DNA of 64,000 nt, taken from positions 1 to 64,000 of the forward strand of contig JAJRZK010000017.1 in the NCBI GenBank assembly GCA_024275315.1, given 5' to 3'. The notes beneath the pieces were generated by a model, which had not been told where the DNA came from, did not search any database, and saw only the letters and a program-made list of their open reading frames with translations. The translations under genes were made by a program, and so were the position numbers. This stretch comes from Nitrospirota bacterium. GTDB lineage: Bacteria; Nitrospinota_A; UBA7883. The first letter of the stretch is position 1. The number at the start of each line of letters is the position of its first letter. Shown in pieces: positions 21,216-46,556 of this stretch.

Positions 21216-24104
21216 TTGTCGCTTGACGGTTTTCAAGAAATTCTGGACACGATTTCAGAAGCAACTTCCATCGTATCATCATTAACCCCTGACCTTTCCG
21301 ACAAGAAAAGCATCTCCGACGTTATGCTTGCGCTTGAAAAAATCACCCCTGAAATAGGCAAAGGCCTTACCGGGAAAATGGCTGGCCTTTGCGAGTTGCT
21401 GGCGCAACTGTACGAAAAGTTCCTTATGGAAATGGTTGACGACGGCTCCGTCGGGATCGAGATGACTCTCCAGGGTTTGTCAGTTCTACAAGAGTCGATC
21501 GAGGAATCCTCGAGCCAGGAGACCCTGGACGAAAAGACCGTAATGATATCGACCAGCCTGTTCACGGCTTATGGTGTTTCTGTGGCAGGACTTGAGACAG
21601 GACAAACCACAGACTCACAAGAGAAGCCCGATGATACTCTCGCTCAAGCCGGGACAGGCGATGGTGAAAACCCCGAACCCGAGGACGCGGTGGACGAGGA
21701 TGATGATTTTTTCGCGGGGATCGAAACCGGCATGGGTTCTGAAAACGCCGGGTATGGAACCGTGGAGGAGCATGAAGAAGAGACCGAACCTGTAAACCCG
21801 ATAGTCGAAAAACTGAGCCAGCTCGCCAACGATGTCACCATGCTCGACGCGGATATGACCGATAAAAAAGTGGTGTCGGACATTATGCTGGAGCTCGAAG
21901 AGATCACGACAGACATGAATAACGAAGGGTGTGACCCCCAAGTGACATCCCTTACAAGCACGCTCGGTCTTTTGTATGAAAAAAGCCTGATGAAAGGGCT
22001 GGAAAACGGTCAAAAAGCCATTGACTTAAGCGCCGATGCGATTATGATCCTTTCCGCCTACTTTGAGCAAACCCACTCCCAGGACCTTCCGGTGCAAGCG
22101 ATACAAGTCAAAAAAAGGATTGAAAATGAATTCGGGCTCGCAGCTGGTGATGAGTCCCACGAATCGCGGGAACCTGACGATAAAGCTCCGCCTGCCGCAG
22201 AATCCCCCCAGGAGCCGGATAACGCCCAGGGTATGGTCACAGAAGCCGGCTATGACACGGTAAAAGTAGCCTCTGACGAGGACCTTCTCATTTACTGTGA
22301 ATTTGTCCTGGAGGTTAACGATTCGGTCGCAGGCATAGAATCGGACCTGCTGGAGCTTGAAGAGAGCCCGACAAACGAGGAGTTGATAAACAGCACTTTC
22401 AGGGCTTTTCACAGCATGAAAGGCGCCGCCGGTTTTCTTGGCGTAAACACCGTGAACATCTTATGTCACGAGGCGGAGACCCTTCTGGACAAATTCCGCA
22501 AGAAAATACTGGTCTGCAACCAGGAAATGATGGACGCGCTGCTCAAGACGGTGGATGTGATCAAGCTTGTCAACGAAGGGCTGGACGCCGGGTGCCAGGG
22601 GATCAAAGCTAAGCTGCCAAACGCAGACCTGGAGATGCCTAAGTTTCATATCGATTCACTGGTGCAATTGCTGACCAGGCTCGGGTCGGAGGAGCAGACA
22701 AAGGTAGTGGAACAGGATGTAGAAAAGGCTGATGCCGAGGAAGAGGAAAGTGGTGACGAGGAAATTGAGCCCATAGGCGCGATGCTTGTAAATGAGCAAA
22801 AAATATCCCGGGACCAGCTTGAGACGGCTCTGGAATCTCAGCAGGCGAAACCGTTGGGCGAGATTCTCGTGGATATGGGAGCCATAGAAAAAAGCGAGGT
22901 TGAACAAGCCCTGAAATACCAGGCCGAGAAGAAAAAGAAAGTACAGGCTTCATCAATCAAGATTGACACTGAAAAGCTGGACAGCCTGCTTGAGCTGGTG
23001 GGCGAGCTTGTAATCTCCCAGTCCATTGTCGGGCAGGACGAGGCCCTTGCCAGTGAGAACAACCGGGTTCTTCTTAAAAACATTACAAACCTCGGGAAGA
23101 TTACCAAAAATATTCAGGACCGCGTGATGACCCTGCGCATGGTCCCGTTGAAGCAGACGTTTCAAAAAATGAACCGGCTGGTGCGCGATCTGGCAAAGAA
23201 AATGAAAAAACCTGTGCATTTCAACATTTCAGGGGCGGACACGGAAATCGATAAGACACTAATCGAAGAGTTGAACGATCCTCTGGTTCATTTATTGAGA
23301 AATTCCATGGATCATGGCCTGGAATCCGCCGAAGAGCGTGTGGCCAAAGGGAAGGACAAAACAGGCAACGTATGGTTATCGGCTTCTCACAAGGGCGGAA
23401 ACGTCCAGATAGAGGTGATAGATGATGGAAAAGGTTTGGACCGGGATAGGATCAAACAAAAGGCGATTGAAAAGGGCTTGATACCCGCCGATGCGGAGTT
23501 ATCGGAGCAGGAGCTGTACAGCCTGATATTACAGCCCGGTTTTTCCACACACGATGTGGCGACCGACATTTCGGGAAGGGGTGTCGGTATGGACGTGGTG
23601 AAATCCAACCTGGACAAGTTGGGAGGGCGCCTGGAAATAACAAGCAAGCCGGGCGAAGGCTCCACTTTCATGATCAAGCTCCCTCTGACTCTCGCCATTG
23701 TAGACGGCATGATAGTCCGCATCGGAAAGGACAGGTATGTTATTCCCACCATATCTATACGAGAGTCGGTACGCCCATCCAAGGATTCGATTTCGACGTA
23801 TAAAAAGAAGGGCGAAATGATCGATGTACGGGGCCACCTGCTTCCAATGGTCAGGCTCCACAGGCGTCTGGGTATAATGGATGCGATTCATGAAAATCCA
23901 TGGGAGGGCATCGTAATAATCGTGGAATCCGATGGCAGGGAGTTCGGGTTTCTCGTTGATGATCTGCTCGGTCAGCAGCAAGTTGTTATCAAGAGTCTTG
24001 ACAAACGTTTCAAGGGGCTTCCAGGCATATCCGGAGGCACTATACTGGGAGACGGCTGTGTAGGATTGATCCTGGATGTAAGCAGTGTCGCGGCGTCCAA
24101 TTAG
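21216..24104 (+). CDS. cheA: CheA-type histidine kinase 1 with duplicated N-terminal domain and MshEN-like linker
   Basis: This 962-residue protein is an unusually long CheA. Residues 5-105 and 195-307 are two related helical domains resembling Hpt bundles but lacking the His. The true Hpt is at about 355-460, with phospho-acceptor His399 in FHSMKGAAG. Residues 519-567 hold two LG-x2-L...L-x3-L-x2-Q repeats like the c-di-GMP-binding MshEN motif. The dimerization domain (about 583-650) and the HATPase follow (N box LLRNSMDHG, DDGKGLD, GRGVGMDVV), then a CheW-like domain from about 827. The TTG start has TGGAG upstream. It leads the chemosensory operon. Confidence 0.93.
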   Translation: MSLDGFQEILDTISEATSIVSSLTPDLSDKKSISDVMLALEKITPEIGKGLTGKMAGLCELLAQLYEKFLMEMVDDGSVGIEMTLQGLSVLQESIEESSSQETLDEKTVMISTSLFTAYGVSVAGLETGQTTDSQEKPDDTLAQAGTGDGENPEPEDAVDEDDDFFAGIETGMGSENAGYGTVEEHEEETEPVNPIVEKLSQLANDVTMLDADMTDKKVVSDIMLELEEITTDMNNEGCDPQVTSLTSTLGLLYEKSLMKGLENGQKAIDLSADAIMILSAYFEQTHSQDLPVQAIQVKKRIENEFGLAAGDESHESREPDDKAPPAAESPQEPDNAQGMVTEAGYDTVKVASDEDLLIYCEFVLEVNDSVAGIESDLLELEESPTNEELINSTFRAFHSMKGAAGFLGVNTVNILCHEAETLLDKFRKKILVCNQEMMDALLKTVDVIKLVNEGLDAGCQGIKAKLPNADLEMPKFHIDSLVQLLTRLGSEEQTKVVEQDVEKADAEEEESGDEEIEPIGAMLVNEQKISRDQLETALESQQAKPLGEILVDMGAIEKSEVEQALKYQAEKKKKVQASSIKIDTEKLDSLLELVGELVISQSIVGQDEALASENNRVLLKNITNLGKITKNIQDRVMTLRMVPLKQTFQKMNRLVRDLAKKMKKPVHFNISGADTEIDKTLIEELNDPLVHLLRNSMDHGLESAEERVAKGKDKTGNVWLSASHKGGNVQIEVIDDGKGLDRDRIKQKAIEKGLIPADAELSEQELYSLILQPGFSTHDVATDISGRGVGMDVVKSNLDKLGGRLEITSKPGEGSTFMIKLPLTLAIVDGMIVRIGKDRYVIPTISIRESVRPSKDSISTYKKKGEMIDVRGHLLPMVRLHRRLGIMDAIHENPWEGIVIIVESDGREFGFLVDDLLGQQQVVIKSLDKRFKGLPGISGGTILGDGCVGLILDVSSVAASN

Positions 24105-24164: not shown

Positions 24165-24599
24165 ATGAGCGTTAGTATAATGATCGTTGATGATGAAGAG
24201 GGGATCAGAACATCTCTCGCCGCATATCTAAAGCTTGAAGGTTACAAAGTCAGCGTCGCGGAAAGCGGCGAGGATGCGATCAAAAAACTGCGCGCATCGA
24301 AGCACAACATAATCTTGCTCGACATAAACATGCCCGGTATCGACGGGCTAGAGACGTTGCGCATTATCAAGTCAATCGACTTCTCGATTCAGGTTATCAT
24401 GATAACCGCGTACTCAACATTTGAAAAGACGATGAAATCGCTTGAATTCGGAGCTTCTGACTATATTCTCAAACCATTTGATGATTTATCGGAAATACTG
24501 AGGCTGGTGAAGATTTCAGAAGAAAAGCTGGAGCGATGGAAGCGCAACGTGGGAGCTTCGATTATAAAACAAAAAGAAAACTTATCAAAATTGGGATAA
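24165..24599 (+). CDS. single-domain response regulator 1
   Basis: This 144-residue receiver has acidic residues DDEE, phospho-acceptor Asp in LLLDINMPG (near residue 52), the Thr in MITAYST and the Lys in LKPFDD. No DNA-binding output follows. Instead it has a short C-terminal tail (KLERWKRNVGA...KQKENLSKLG). It is more like a diffusible receiver than CheY itself and resembles regulator 2 in the same operon. It sits between cheA1 and cheW, so CheA1 is the likely phosphodonor. Confidence 0.9.
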   Translation: MSVSIMIVDDEEGIRTSLAAYLKLEGYKVSVAESGEDAIKKLRASKHNIILLDINMPGIDGLETLRIIKSIDFSIQVIMITAYSTFEKTMKSLEFGASDYILKPFDDLSEILRLVKISEEKLERWKRNVGASIIKQKENLSKLG

Positions 24600-24622: not shown

Positions 24623-25138
24623 ATGGCGGCACAAACGGATCAGAGAGATATAACCCAGGCGACCGCACAAGGTCATGAAGGGAAATACCTCACTTTTGTT
24701 TTAGGTGATGAGGAGTATGGCGTCGAAATCCTCAAGGTACGGGAAATAATCGGCCTGATGGAGATTACCATTGTCCCTCAAACCCCCGAGTTTATAAAAG
24801 GTGTAATAAACCTGCGGGGAAAGGTTATCCCGGTTATCGACCTTCGCCTAAAATTTGGCATGGAAGAAGCGGAGCCAACGGAGGAGACGTGTGTCATAGT
24901 TGTCGATATCGTGGGGACACTGATGGGAATACTGGTCGACACCGTATCAGAAGTGCTGGACATTTCGGCCAGCGAAATAGAGCCGCCGCCCGCTTTCGAC
25001 AGCAATATCGGCACGGAGTTCATCCTTGGCATGGGAAAAATAAAGGGAAGGGTAAAGATCCTGCTGGCCATAAGCAGGGTGCTGTCCCAGGAAGAGCTTA
25101 CCCGCGTTATACAGTCAGGCGGCCCGGGTAAGGGATAA
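24623..25138 (+). CDS. cheW: CheW scaffold protein
   Basis: CheW couples CheA to receptors in signalling arrays. The 171-residue product is a single CheW domain, with LTFVLGDEEYGVEILKVREI at the start, the receptor/kinase interface NLRGKVIPVIDLRLKFG and LVDTVSEVL. A start at ATG 24623 is fixed by AAGGAG 7 nt upstream. Longer in-frame extensions overlap the preceding gene and are unlikely. A 161-nt gap to cheR follows, without a clear gene. Confidence 0.95.
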   Translation: MAAQTDQRDITQATAQGHEGKYLTFVLGDEEYGVEILKVREIIGLMEITIVPQTPEFIKGVINLRGKVIPVIDLRLKFGMEEAEPTEETCVIVVDIVGTLMGILVDTVSEVLDISASEIEPPPAFDSNIGTEFILGMGKIKGRVKILLAISRVLSQEELTRVIQSGGPGKG

Positions 25139-25299: not shown

Positions 25300-26169
25300 A
25301 TGAATAAACTGGATCAAAACACTGTCGTGCCGGGAGCCTTGCCCCTTAATGACAGGGAGTTCAAGCTCTTCCGGGATCTTATTTTTCTAAAGAGTGGCAT
25401 AAACCTTCACGACGGCAAAAAGGAACTTTTGCGCACCAGGCTTGGCAGTCGCATCCGGTCCAAAGGGTTGCCATCTTTCGCCAGCTATTATGACCTGGTA
25501 AGACGAGACAAGACAGGGGTCGAGTTAATGGGTGTGCTGGACGCCATTTCGACCAACATCACAAGTTTTTTCAGGGAAATAAACCATTTCAATTTTCTTA
25601 ACGAAGTGGCGATACCCCAAATAGTGGACAGAAAAGCCAAATCGGGCGATAACTCCATACGATTCTGGAGCGCAGGATGCTCTTCGGGCGAGGAGCCGTA
25701 TTCCCTGGCGTTTACACTCCTTGAACACAAAAAAATATCCCGGTCGTTCGAGATAAAAGTTTTGGCGACGGATATATCGCTTGAAATGCTCGAAAGAGCC
25801 TCCACGGGTGTGTATAGCGAAGAAAAGCTAGTCTCCGTCTCGAAAGATATCAAGCGCGATTATTTCCAGAAAGGCTCCGGGGACAACGCCGGGATGTATC
25901 GCGTAAAGCCGGAAGTGCGGCAGATAATATACTTCAAAAGGTTCAACCTGATGATGAACATATTCCCTTTCAAGCACAAGTTCGACTGCATATTCTGCCG
26001 TAATGTGATGATATATTTTGACAAGCCCACGCAGGAAACGCTGGTAAACAAATATTACCAGTCGCTGGGCCCTGGCGGATATCTTTTGATAGGCCACTCC
26101 GAAAGCCTTACAGGTGTTAATCACAATTTCAAATACGTCCGACCTACAATCTACCAGAAACCATTGTAA
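25300..26169 (+). CDS. cheR: chemoreceptor methyltransferase CheR
   Basis: CheR uses S-adenosylmethionine to methylate receptor glutamates. The 289-residue product has the small N-terminal domain (FRDLIFLKSGINL...KKELLRTRL), the TSFFREINHF segment and the SAM-binding RFWSAGCSSGEEPYSLA. The sequence FDCIFCRNVMIYFDKPTQ is the family catalytic region, and SESL lies near the end. No receptor (MCP) gene is present in the window, so its substrates are encoded elsewhere. Its presence with cheB shows that the pathway has methylation-based adaptation. Confidence 0.95.
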   Translation: MNKLDQNTVVPGALPLNDREFKLFRDLIFLKSGINLHDGKKELLRTRLGSRIRSKGLPSFASYYDLVRRDKTGVELMGVLDAISTNITSFFREINHFNFLNEVAIPQIVDRKAKSGDNSIRFWSAGCSSGEEPYSLAFTLLEHKKISRSFEIKVLATDISLEMLERASTGVYSEEKLVSVSKDIKRDYFQKGSGDNAGMYRVKPEVRQIIYFKRFNLMMNIFPFKHKFDCIFCRNVMIYFDKPTQETLVNKYYQSLGPGGYLLIGHSESLTGVNHNFKYVRPTIYQKPL

Positions 26170-26193: not shown

Positions 26194-26607
26194 ATGGAAG
26201 CCAAAATCCTAATCGTTGATGACGAAATAGGGATAACTGATTCCCTCACCAGGTATTTTCGCCTTATGGGCTATAACGTGGACAGTTCCAACGACCCGCA
26301 GGAAGCTCTTAACCTTGTCCTCAAGGAAAACTACATGATTGTCATATCAGATATCATGATGCCCGGCATGTCGGGTATAGAACTGCTAAAGAAAATTAAA
26401 AAGTACAATGGCATGATACAAGTGATAATGATGACCGGTGTCGTGACGATTGAGAATGTTTTGTCCTGTCTTGGAGCCGGGGCGAACGAATGCATGCTCA
26501 AGCCGCTGGACAACCTTGAGAAGATAAAATGCGCTGTAGATGAAGCTATAGCGAAACTTACCAGGTGGGAAGAGCTCATAAAAACCATGATAAAGCGTAA
26601 AGCCTAG
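26194..26607 (+). CDS. single-domain response regulator 2
   Basis: This 137-residue receiver has VDDE, phospho-acceptor Asp in VISDIMMPGMSG, the Thr in MMTGVVT and the Lys in LKPLDN. Like regulator 1 it has no output domain and ends in a short helical tail (KLTRWEELIKTMIKRKA). The shared K-L-x-R-W in both tails suggests duplication. ACAGGAG precedes the ATG. cheA2 follows after 3 nt, so CheA2 is the likely donor. Confidence 0.9.
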   Translation: MEAKILIVDDEIGITDSLTRYFRLMGYNVDSSNDPQEALNLVLKENYMIVISDIMMPGMSGIELLKKIKKYNGMIQVIMMTGVVTIENVLSCLGAGANECMLKPLDNLEKIKCAVDEAIAKLTRWEELIKTMIKRKA

Positions 26608-26610
26608 CCG

Positions 26611-28620
26611 ATGGAAGAAATAGACCGCGAAATCCTCGTTGAGTTCATCAAGGAGACCATTGAGGAGCTTGATGGGCTCGACGCGAAGTTTATAGAGCTG
26701 GAGAACAACCCCAGCGACTCTGAGACCATAAACGCCATATTTCGAACGATGCACTCGATCAAGGGGTCCGCTTCGTTTTTCAACCTGAACCACATACGCA
26801 ACTTTTCCCATAAACTGGAAAATCTCCTGGACGAGCTTCGCAAAGGCGCCAGGAAAGTGACCAAGGACATTATCAACATCCTCCTGGAAGGGAAGGATTA
26901 TCTGGATGGAATGTTTGATCGCCTCGTCAACGGCGACATGGGCGTGGAGTTGTTTGAAAACGAAACTTCGCTTCTTGAAAAGGTGGACGGTATTCTTGCA
27001 ACCGAGGAGGAAAAGGAAGAAGTCAAGCCACACCATCTTTTTCATGAGTTGGACAAGATGCGCCATGACCTAGACGCCGAGGAAGTGATCAACAAGCCTT
27101 CTGTCGCCGGCATGCTCGAAATAATTGAGCGGCTACGTGAAGTCGTGCTGGGCCCTGAAGCTAAAGGGGAAAAAGACGCTCCCCCACTTGGCCAGCTTCT
27201 CGTGGAAGAAGGCGTGGTCACCTCGGATGATGTTTCCAACGCGCTTTCAAAACAGAAGAGGATAGGCGAAATTCTCATAGAGGAAGGCAAGGCCACCCCG
27301 GACGCCATAGCCAGGGCCGCCCAATTACAGGAAAAACAAAACAAGGAAATAAGCGAAGCCAAACGCGCCAAACCTGTGCCATCCTCTGCGGTAATGGGGA
27401 TCAAGAAGTCGATGAGAATAGAGGAGGAAAAGATCGACAACTTCATGGACGCCGTGGGTGAGCTGATAATAAACGCCGAAGTCTTCAACTATCTGCAGAA
27501 AAAACTTGAAACAGGACATGAAATTGAAAAGCTGGTGGCAGAGTTCAAGAACGCCAGCGTGGATTTTAGCGAGCTTATTTTCAACCTCCAGAAGGGATTG
27601 GCCGAGGTTCGCAAGGTTTCACTCAAGGGCATTTTTCAGAAAGTGCCTCGAATGGTCCGCGACCTGGCGGAAAAGATCGGCAAGGAGGTGGACGTGCAGG
27701 TGTCCGGCGAAGAGTTGCTTGTGGATAAAAGTCTTTATGAGCAGCTTGAAAGCCCACTGAACCATATCATAAGAAACGCCATAGACCATGGCGTCGAGCT
27801 ACCTGATGACCGCAAGGCCTCGGGGAAAAATCCCACCGGCAAAATCATTGTGTCGGCGGAGGAGGTTTCCGGAGATTTCGTCATCAGCATAATCGACGAC
27901 GGCAAGGGCATGGACGCGGAGACTCTCAAAGCAAAAGCTTTGGAAAAAGGTATAATCACTCCCCAGATGGCGGAGGTAATGTCAGACAAGGAAGCCTACA
28001 AGCTTATATTCGCTCCCGGTTTTTCCACCGCCGAGAAAGTAACCGATGTATCGGGCCGCGGCGTGGGAATGGATGTCGTCATGACAGCGTTAAAGGAGAT
28101 CAAGGGCAAAATCGACATCAACACGGAAGTTGGCAGAGGCACGGAGCTAATGATCTCCGTCCCCATGTCCACAACCTTGATAACCATATCCGGTCTCGTG
28201 GTGGCTGTCGGCAAGGAGCATTACATCGTCCCGATGGAATGGGTGCGAGAATCGATCAAACCCAGCCGGGAGCAAATAACCTCTGTCAAGCATCAGGGAG
28301 ACATTATCCAGATCAGGGAGCAAATCTACCCCCTGTTCAAGCTGTTTGAAGTGTTCGGTATCGTTCCTGCCAGCAAGGAGCCATGGGAGTCCGTGGTCAT
28401 GGTGATTGAAAAGGAAGATCAACAATGTTGCCTTGTGGTGGATGAAATTATCGAAGAGACACAAGTGGTATTAAAAGACCTGGGGGATATATTCAGCGGA
28501 ATTCCCGGCATTCTCGGCGGGGCCATTCTGGGTGACGGGAAGATCGGCCTTGTGATAAACATAGAAGGCATTTTAAATTCGATGAAAAATCGCTTTAACA
28601 CCATAAATCAAGAGGGTTGA
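26611..28620 (+). CDS. cheA: CheA-type histidine kinase 2 with MshEN-like linker
   Basis: This 669-residue CheA has an N-terminal Hpt (1-105) with His48 in MHSIKGSASF. Residues 192-240 carry two MshEN-like repeats (PLGQLLVEEGVVT... and RIGEILIEEGKAT...). The dimerization domain is near 265-330, and the HATPase has IIRNAIDHG, DDGKGMD and GRGVGMDVV. A CheW-like domain forms the C-terminus from about 510. Unlike CheA1 it lacks the duplicated N-terminal domains. It follows regulator 2 by 3 nt. Two distinct full CheA kinases in one operon suggest branched or cross-phosphorylating signalling. Confidence 0.94.
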   Translation: MEEIDREILVEFIKETIEELDGLDAKFIELENNPSDSETINAIFRTMHSIKGSASFFNLNHIRNFSHKLENLLDELRKGARKVTKDIINILLEGKDYLDGMFDRLVNGDMGVELFENETSLLEKVDGILATEEEKEEVKPHHLFHELDKMRHDLDAEEVINKPSVAGMLEIIERLREVVLGPEAKGEKDAPPLGQLLVEEGVVTSDDVSNALSKQKRIGEILIEEGKATPDAIARAAQLQEKQNKEISEAKRAKPVPSSAVMGIKKSMRIEEEKIDNFMDAVGELIINAEVFNYLQKKLETGHEIEKLVAEFKNASVDFSELIFNLQKGLAEVRKVSLKGIFQKVPRMVRDLAEKIGKEVDVQVSGEELLVDKSLYEQLESPLNHIIRNAIDHGVELPDDRKASGKNPTGKIIVSAEEVSGDFVISIIDDGKGMDAETLKAKALEKGIITPQMAEVMSDKEAYKLIFAPGFSTAEKVTDVSGRGVGMDVVMTALKEIKGKIDINTEVGRGTELMISVPMSTTLITISGLVVAVGKEHYIVPMEWVRESIKPSREQITSVKHQGDIIQIREQIYPLFKLFEVFGIVPASKEPWESVVMVIEKEDQQCCLVVDEIIEETQVVLKDLGDIFSGIPGILGGAILGDGKIGLVINIEGILNSMKNRFNTINQEG

Positions 28621-28623
28621 CCT

Positions 28624-30628
<2,005 letters not shown>

Positions 30629-30632
30629 TCCG

Positions 30633-31007
30633 ATGGATAAAAACGCGGGCGACAAAGCCAGGCGTAAATGCGCAAGGGTCGGGTTCGAAACCACCATCAG
30701 CCTGGAAGTTGGAGATAAAACATACAATTATGACCGCACTTACGACGTCAGCATGAACGGGATATTCGTCTCCACCGCCCAGCCTCTCGACCTTGGCGTT
30801 ACGGCCAGGTTTGTGATGAAACTTGCCGTGGGAATGAGAAACGAAGAGATCAAGGGGTCGTGTCTTGTCGTTCGAACCATCTCTTTTGATGACGGGCTTT
30901 CCGGAGAAACTCCAGGTCCCGGCATGGCGTTGAAATTTACTGACCTGGATGACGACTCCGGCGCCATGCTCTACCAGATTATTCGCCACAACCAGCCCGT
31001 TGAATAA
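30633..31007 (+). CDS. PilZ-domain protein at the end of the chemosensory operon
   Basis: This 124-residue single PilZ domain has RKCAR near residue 12 and DVSMNGIFV near residue 37, which together give the c-di-GMP signature R-x3-R...D-x-S-x2-G. The ATG at 30633 lies 4 nt after the cheB stop, so it belongs to the operon. With the MshEN-like linkers in both CheA proteins it makes a second possible point where c-di-GMP meets this pathway. The output target is not evident; flagellar motor braking or type IV pilus control are the usual options. Confidence 0.85.
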   Translation: MDKNAGDKARRKCARVGFETTISLEVGDKTYNYDRTYDVSMNGIFVSTAQPLDLGVTARFVMKLAVGMRNEEIKGSCLVVRTISFDDGLSGETPGPGMALKFTDLDDDSGAMLYQIIRHNQPVE

Positions 31008-45683: not shown

Positions 45684-46556
45684 ATGCTTAGTGGATCAAT
45701 AGTTGCTCTGGTCACGCCGTTCGCTGACGGCGCAATCGACGAAGAGAAGTTCACAGACCTTGTAAACTGGCACATAGAACAGGGGACACGGGGAATTGTA
45801 GCCTGCGGCACTACAGGTGAGTCGGCGACATTGTCCCATGAGGAGCACGCGAGGGTGATCGATCTGTGCGTGGAGGTGGTTGCCGGCCGGATCCCCGTGA
45901 TCGCCGGAGCCGGGTCGAATTCCACATCGGAGGCCATTTCCCTGACTATGCACGCCGCCGAAGCGGGGGCGGACGCGGCCCTGCTTGTCACCCCGTACTA
46001 CAACAAGCCGTCCCAGGAGGGGTTGTATCAACATTACAAAGCGATAGCCGACGCCGTCGATATCCCCCAGATTGTCTATAACGTCCCGGGCAGAACCGCT
46101 TCGGAGGTCTCGCCGGAAACGATGGCGCGGCTTGCCAGGCATAAAAACATAATAGGGGTTAAAGACGCGGGTGGATCCCTTGTAAAGACGGCGGATATGA
46201 TCGGGCTTTGTGAGCCTGATTTCATTGTGCTGTCCGGCGACGATTTTCTCACGGTACCAATGATGTCCATCGGGGCCAGAGGTGTGATTTCGGTGACGGC
46301 CAATATTGTCCCCGACAAGATCGCCGCCATGGTGGACGCCGCCGACAGCGGAGACTTTGCCAGGGCCCGGCAGTTGCACTATGAAACCAGGGATCTCTCC
46401 AACGCGATGTTTTTCGAGTCCAACCCGACGCCGGTCAAAACCGCGCTTGCGATGATGGGAAAAATCAGGGAGGAATTCCGGTTGCCGCTGTGCCAGGTGT
46501 CACAAATGAACCGGGAGAAGATTTACAGTGTCATGGAGAGGATGGAGCTTATTTAG
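45684..46556 (+). CDS. dapA: 4-hydroxy-tetrahydrodipicolinate synthase
   Basis: DapA condenses pyruvate with aspartate semialdehyde at the branch to lysine and DAP. The 290-residue TIM barrel has GTTGESATLSHEEH, the catalytic Tyr in IVYNVPGRT and the Schiff-base Lys in IIGVKDAGGS. It lies 14 nt after dapF. Length is standard. Lysine feedback sensitivity cannot be told from the sequence alone. Confidence 0.97.
   Translation: MLSGSIVALVTPFADGAIDEEKFTDLVNWHIEQGTRGIVACGTTGESATLSHEEHARVIDLCVEVVAGRIPVIAGAGSNSTSEAISLTMHAAEAGADAALLVTPYYNKPSQEGLYQHYKAIADAVDIPQIVYNVPGRTASEVSPETMARLARHKNIIGVKDAGGSLVKTADMIGLCEPDFIVLSGDDFLTVPMMSIGARGVISVTANIVPDKIAAMVDAADSGDFARARQLHYETRDLSNAMFFESNPTPVKTALAMMGKIREEFRLPLCQVSQMNREKIYSVMERMELI

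Follow-up and report, generated by a model that had tools for sequence, protein, structure and literature searches.

The window (the whole stretch of DNA that was analysed, 64,000 nucleotides) contains a chemotaxis operon of the order cheA1-REC-cheW-cheR-REC-cheA2-Hpt.CheW-cheB-PilZ, all of it on the forward strand. It opens with cheA1 (21216-24104), which the list of open reading frames and the domain matches define as a protein of 962 aa with a TTG start, followed by a stand-alone, CheY-like receiver protein (24165-24599, PF00072), cheW (24623-25138, PF01584), cheR (25300-26169, PF01739) and a second receiver protein (26194-26607, PF00072). A second kinase of 669 aa is encoded by cheA2 (26611-28620); behind it lie the genes for an Hpt-CheW fusion protein (28624-29583) and for cheB (29597-30628). 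The last gene of the operon encodes a PilZ-domain protein (30633-31007; PF07238, 34 bits with a cut-off of 22.5) in which both c-di-GMP motifs, RxxxR (RKCAR) and DxSxxG (DVSMNG), are intact, and seven other genomes of the order (L056, L057, L058, L059, L060, L071 and L072) also have a PilZ gene in this cluster. Profile searches of the genome further gave 15 matches to GGDEF, 12 matches to MCP, and FlhA.

Both kinases have what defines the CheA class, namely P1 with its histidine (His399 in CheA1, His48 in CheA2), P3, P4 with N and G boxes and P5, and the histidines and kinase boxes are intact. CheA1 consists of a duplicated N-terminal helical region, P1, an MshEN_N-like module, the P3 dimerization domain, the P4 kinase and a CheW-like P5. 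The N-terminus (21216-22160) is a tandem duplication of an apparently helical unit of about 115 residues, whose two copies (residues 9-122 and approximately 196-310; 29% identity, E=1e-15) belong to no Pfam family; CheA1 orthologs from another family of the class do not align until about residue 194, as though they possessed a single copy.

The module of CheA1 is made up of motif I (PIGAMLVNEQKISRDQLETALESQ; 22770-22841, residues 519-542), a spacer of 3 residues, QAK (22842-22850), and motif II (PLGEILVDMGAIEKSEVEQALKYQ; 22851-22922, residues 546-569). The original prediction had placed two tandem MshEN-type units of 24 residues at 22770-22916 (residues 519-567) with 2 residues between them; the two units and their start are confirmed, whereas the end lies two residues further on, at residue 569 (position 22922), and the spacer was counted one residue too short. 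Residues 519-569 score 51.6 bits (E=5.9e-14) over model positions 1-53 of 53 in NF053729, a curated NCBIfam model of the MshE-related c-di-GMP motif with a curated cut-off of 38 bits. A module in CheA2 (27184-27330, residues 192-240, spacer of 1 residue), which the original prediction did not include despite its location in the same operon, also exceeds this cut-off with 47.8 bits, and all 30 of the 30 CheA-borne module sequences are matched by the same model.

The consensus RLGxxLVxxGLIxxxxLxxxLxxQ is found twice in CheA1 with several deviations (in MshE numbering, Arg to Pro in both motifs, L10I, G18Q and L54V). In motif I, the Leu of position 2 is replaced by Ile and the turn Gly by Gln; this last substitution had been seen before, and it affects the turn glycine (G18 of MshE) and not a ligand contact. 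Motif II, which had been taken to fit the consensus throughout, deviates as well, with Val at the position of MshE L54, and the CheA2 module has Ala at that of MshE Leu58. CheA1 and CheA2 alike have, in both motifs, the contact Gly of position 3 (G521 and G548 in CheA1) and the contact Gln of position 24. The stacking Arg of position 1 is missing from CheA1, both motifs having Pro in its place. The spacers of 3 (CheA1) and 1 (CheA2) are shorter than the 5 residues of the MshEN definition; this length is not absolute, since the c-di-GMP binder PilF GSPII-C has a spacer of 7, and among CheA-borne motif pairs it measures 1-4 residues in 41 of 56 cases (full range 1 to 17).

The Pfam family named 'MshEN' (PF05157) does not match CheA1 or CheA2, because it covers mainly the C-subdomain, which is absent from both CheAs. 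The PF05157 matches in the secretion and pilus ATPases of this genome start immediately downstream of the NF053729 matches without overlapping them (for example, PF05157 at 46281-46529 after NF053729 at 46119-46277 in the ATPase of contig C17, and the same arrangement on the minus strand of C24). Judged from their sequences, CheA1 and CheA2 carry the MshEN_N subdomain only, without the C-subdomain.

MshEN or MshEN-like motifs also occur in other proteins of the genome. A response regulator of 247 aa (L009:1117-1860, G000:C22), in which a receiver domain precedes the motifs, is encoded on a small contig beside transposase-like genes. A protein of 220 aa with several MshEN-like motifs (L017:1150-1812, G000:C10) is encoded beside and divergently from a motA-like gene, and flhA lies about 10 kb away. 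Additionally, a PilB/GspE-type ATPase (L010, G000:C24) has several MshEN motif pairs ahead of the ATPase domain, an array at least the size of that of PilF (comparable or larger).

A ligand-free AlphaFold model of the module fragment, built from 30 CheA-borne modules, shows four helices arranged as a four-helix bundle (pLDDT 89.8). The best PDB match of this model in Foldseek is 5htl, MshE with c-di-GMP (0.8 A, TMq 0.81, probability 1.00), and the runner-up is PilF GSPII-B with c-di-GMP; the top 13 matches all belong to the MshEN/PilF/PilB family, and the E value of only 0.037 is explained by the short chain. A single-sequence search of the PDB gave PilF GSPII-C (6f8l 305-358, E=1.4e-11) as the closest solved chain, and a profile-based search gave 5htl at 1.1e-11. 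The original prediction had staked its MshEN-type assignment on the likeness of predicted models to MshEN, and here the curated profile, the PDB sequence search and the fold comparison agree on it. A second model, of CheA1 residues 352-962, has the kinase core as expected and an unreliable domain arrangement (pTM 0.59).

A short repeat in a variable, acidic linker might resemble MshEN by chance or through low complexity, and weak cross-matches to other families could be read in this way; this was refuted by the NF053729 score (E=5.9e-14), the conservation across the class, the confident four-helix model and the Foldseek matches, which leave a chance likeness with a negligible probability. The cross-matches concern DUF4388, seen with 28 of the 30 module sequences, and the C-terminal domain of fumarase, seen with 10 of them, a fumarase also being listed by Foldseek; they possibly reflect a common helical hairpin, and both families were rejected as the identity of the module on account of the weakness of these matches.

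The ligand contacts of MshE are described by Wang et al. (2016; PMC5013675): the position-3 glycines hold the guanine by their backbone amides and the position-24 glutamines hold ribose and phosphate. The same text reports that a bulky residue in place of Gly abolishes c-di-GMP binding, that mutants of Arg9, Asp12 and Gln32 from earlier work changed the affinity by at most fivefold, and that XpsE, a degenerate MshEN that does not bind, has lost contacts through G11V, G40L and Q61V (PMC5013675). CheA1 shares with the N-terminal domain of Vibrio cholerae MshE (5htl) the two 24-residue motifs, the four-helix bundle and, in both motifs, the guanine-binding Gly and the ribose/phosphate-binding Gln, and differs from it in the spacer (3 instead of 5), in Pro for the first Arg of both motifs, in having no C-terminal alpha/beta subdomain and in its fusion to a histidine kinase instead of an ATPase. 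With PilF GSPII-C of Thermus thermophilus the contact residues of motif II are identical (P, L, G, V, L, Q), whereas two contacts of motif I differ (Arg to Pro and Leu to Ile, the GSPII-C motif beginning with RLG) and GSPII-C has the longer spacer, a third motif and a C-subdomain.

In alignments of 13 CheA1 and 15 CheA2 orthologs, the position-3 Gly of both motifs and the Gln of motif II are invariant, as they are in 30 modules from many lineages, a set that was partly selected by pattern. Since the selection pattern demanded Gly at position 3 and hydrophobic residues at positions 2, 6, 7, 17 and 21, these six positions were judged from the ortholog alignments and not from the per-position counts. 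The first Arg is not conserved across CheA modules (Pro, Lys, Arg and others are found), the Gln of motif I is replaced by Lys or Arg in one clade of CheA1 orthologs, and the turn Gly of motif I is variable in CheA1 orthologs.

These data bear on the possibility that the module keeps an MshEN_N-like fold that does not bind nucleotide and replaces P2 as a structural or protein-docking element, for example by recruiting the two stand-alone receivers. The module does occupy the P2 site, and no P2 family was matched in 28 MshEN-bearing CheAs; moreover, degenerate MshEN domains without binding exist, XpsE (PMC5013675) and PilF GSPII-A (PMC12002112) among them, and the first Arg is gone from both CheA1 motifs. 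This double Pro is the main doubt about binding, because Ser for the motif II Arg abolished binding in an engineered PilF GSPII-A, in which a Leu-to-Ile exchange within LxxxLxxQ of motif II caused only an approximately 2.4-fold loss (PMC12002112). The documented binder with Pro at the Arg position has it in motif II only, while CheA1 has it in both motifs. By analogy with PilF, loss of the first Arg is tolerated elsewhere: GSPII-C, with Pro335 at the motif II Arg position, binds c-di-GMP with a KD of 324-460 nM, and GSPII-B, with Lys and Leu for the two Arg, binds it at 6 nM (PMC11731258). Placed directly ahead of helix 1, Pro may also be of help, by preventing an extension of the N-terminal helix like the one that covers the ligand site of XpsE and of GSPII-A. 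Against a module devoid of ligand, the invariant residues include ligand contacts of just the kind that XpsE has lost, and the turn Gly of CheA1 motif I is free to vary; a purely structural or docking role appears unlikely.

Binding by so small a module has a parallel in PilF9-65, an N-subdomain engineered to the consensus, which binds c-di-GMP at 695 nM, is dynamic without ligand and undergoes ligand-induced folding (PMC12002112); by this analogy, the N-subdomain alone suffices for binding. The conservation of the contact residues, together with the published binders that have similar substitutions, makes it quite likely that the modules of CheA1 and CheA2 bind c-di-GMP.

Among the 60 relatives searched, all CheA1 orthologs of the class with a readable linker carry the module, and so do all CheA2 orthologs but one (L062:335-2311), whose neighbouring CheA1 retains it. 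CheAs with an MshEN pair are also found in at least seven other lineages (Planctomycetota, Desulfobacterota-type bacteria including Desulfovibrio, Desulfobulbaceae and Desulfuromonas, Nitrospirota, Magnetococcales, Methylococcaceae, Nitrosomonadales, Auribacterota and Spirochaetes). One carrier of this architecture, Desulfovibrio sp. DV (L120), is a cultured organism. One CheA from a distant genome (L044:1291-2385, G057) contains four MshEN motifs, apparently two modules in series. In the CheA1 orthologs measured, 24-26 residues separate the motif II Gln from VGELV of P3, and 102-136 separate the P1 His from motif I; the module is thus tied to the dimerization domain, and not to P1, because the first distance is constant and the second variable. 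It lies about 10 residues from the dimerization helices of P3 in CheA1. The stretch between the motif II Gln and VGELV is longer in CheA2 and in the other lineages and varies more (23-51 residues), which makes the tight tie to P3 a feature of CheA1.

It could also be supposed that the PilZ protein of the operon docks on the module, and that c-di-GMP acts through this protein and not on CheA itself. The N-terminal domain of Xanthomonas citri PilB docks PilZ, the complex of the two (7lkm) is among the fold-search matches, and the PilZ gene, which comes immediately after cheB in this operon, is also present in the cluster of the seven genomes named above. The predicted fold is, however, far nearer to c-di-GMP-bound MshE (0.8 A, TM 0.81) than to the PilB of 7lkm (2.7 A, TM 0.60), and the module is kept in CheAs of the other family of the class and of other phyla in which no PilZ-like gene was detected in the stretch read. 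Docking of PilZ is regarded as quite improbable. A point against the explanation favoured below is that, in the wider set, regular expressions alone revealed no enrichment of PilZ genes near MshEN-CheA genes (PilZ was found only in the Nitrospinaceae locus) and none of GGDEF genes, which were present at 2 of the 28 loci and at 4 of 52 control loci.

The identity of the module, its predicted fold, its position, its conservation and its operon are established here. The explanation that we favour, with somewhat better than even confidence for the reading as a whole, is that the compact MshEN_N module binds c-di-GMP and sets the activity of CheA. It would be a domain with a single c-di-GMP site formed from two 24-residue motifs, in the usual place of P2. 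Binding of c-di-GMP would order and rigidify the four-helix bundle at the P1-P3 junction, making rigid what is otherwise a loose tether a few residues ahead of P3 and altering the delivery of P1 to the P4 active site. Stiffening of the tether is proposed because the isolated N-subdomain of PilF folds on its ligand and the CheAs have only this subdomain; the reach of P1 to P4 would change because the bundle is closely tied to P3 by its last helix and joins the P1 tether at the opposite end. If binding occurs, an effect on kinase output is likely. High c-di-GMP usually goes with reduced motility and, for this reason, would most likely lower CheA autophosphorylation; an inhibitory direction is moderately favoured. 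CheA1 and CheA2 would be gated together, with the PilZ protein of the operon as a second c-di-GMP input.

Whether bacteria swim or settle is controlled by c-di-GMP, and to our knowledge its known links to chemotaxis run through receptors, methylation or response regulators. Further inputs of this kind, indirect and not on the kinase, are Tlp1 and the CheY-like Cle proteins. MapZ of Pseudomonas feeds c-di-GMP into chemotaxis through receptor methylation and not through the kinase (PMC6370697), and Cbp1 of Azorhizobium is a PilZ-bearing chemoreceptor, with its input at the receptor and not the kinase (PMC6454048). The architecture itself is already known, since Wang et al. (2016; PMC5013675) listed MshEN as associated with CheA and CheX, among others. 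The domain pairing is identical to the one studied here, but it is given there in one sentence and a supplementary table, and the main text contains no binding test, mechanism, compact variant or operon with both kinases (PMC5013675). In the open-licence literature, a search for MshEN-controlled CheA yielded this sentence only, and no test of the pairing came up. The original prediction, which knew of no such mechanism, thus holds for the action of c-di-GMP on CheA through MshEN, for which no report was found, and not for the architecture. What is added here is that both kinases of one operon carry the module in a compact form, free of the C-subdomain and of the Arg, together with the depth of its conservation and its coupling to P3.

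On the evidence of sequence and model, c-di-GMP probably acts directly on a chemotaxis kinase here. The broader proposition, that it directly gates chemotaxis kinases in a large and phylogenetically broad set of bacteria via a compact MshEN switch at the P2 position, with both kinases of this operon controlled alike, stands at about even chances. If true, a ligand site that lies within the kinase itself, only a few residues ahead of its dimerization domain, and is kept across phyla would be the shortest link between c-di-GMP and chemotaxis, and it would account for the way in which flagellated Nitrospinota and many sulfate reducers couple them.
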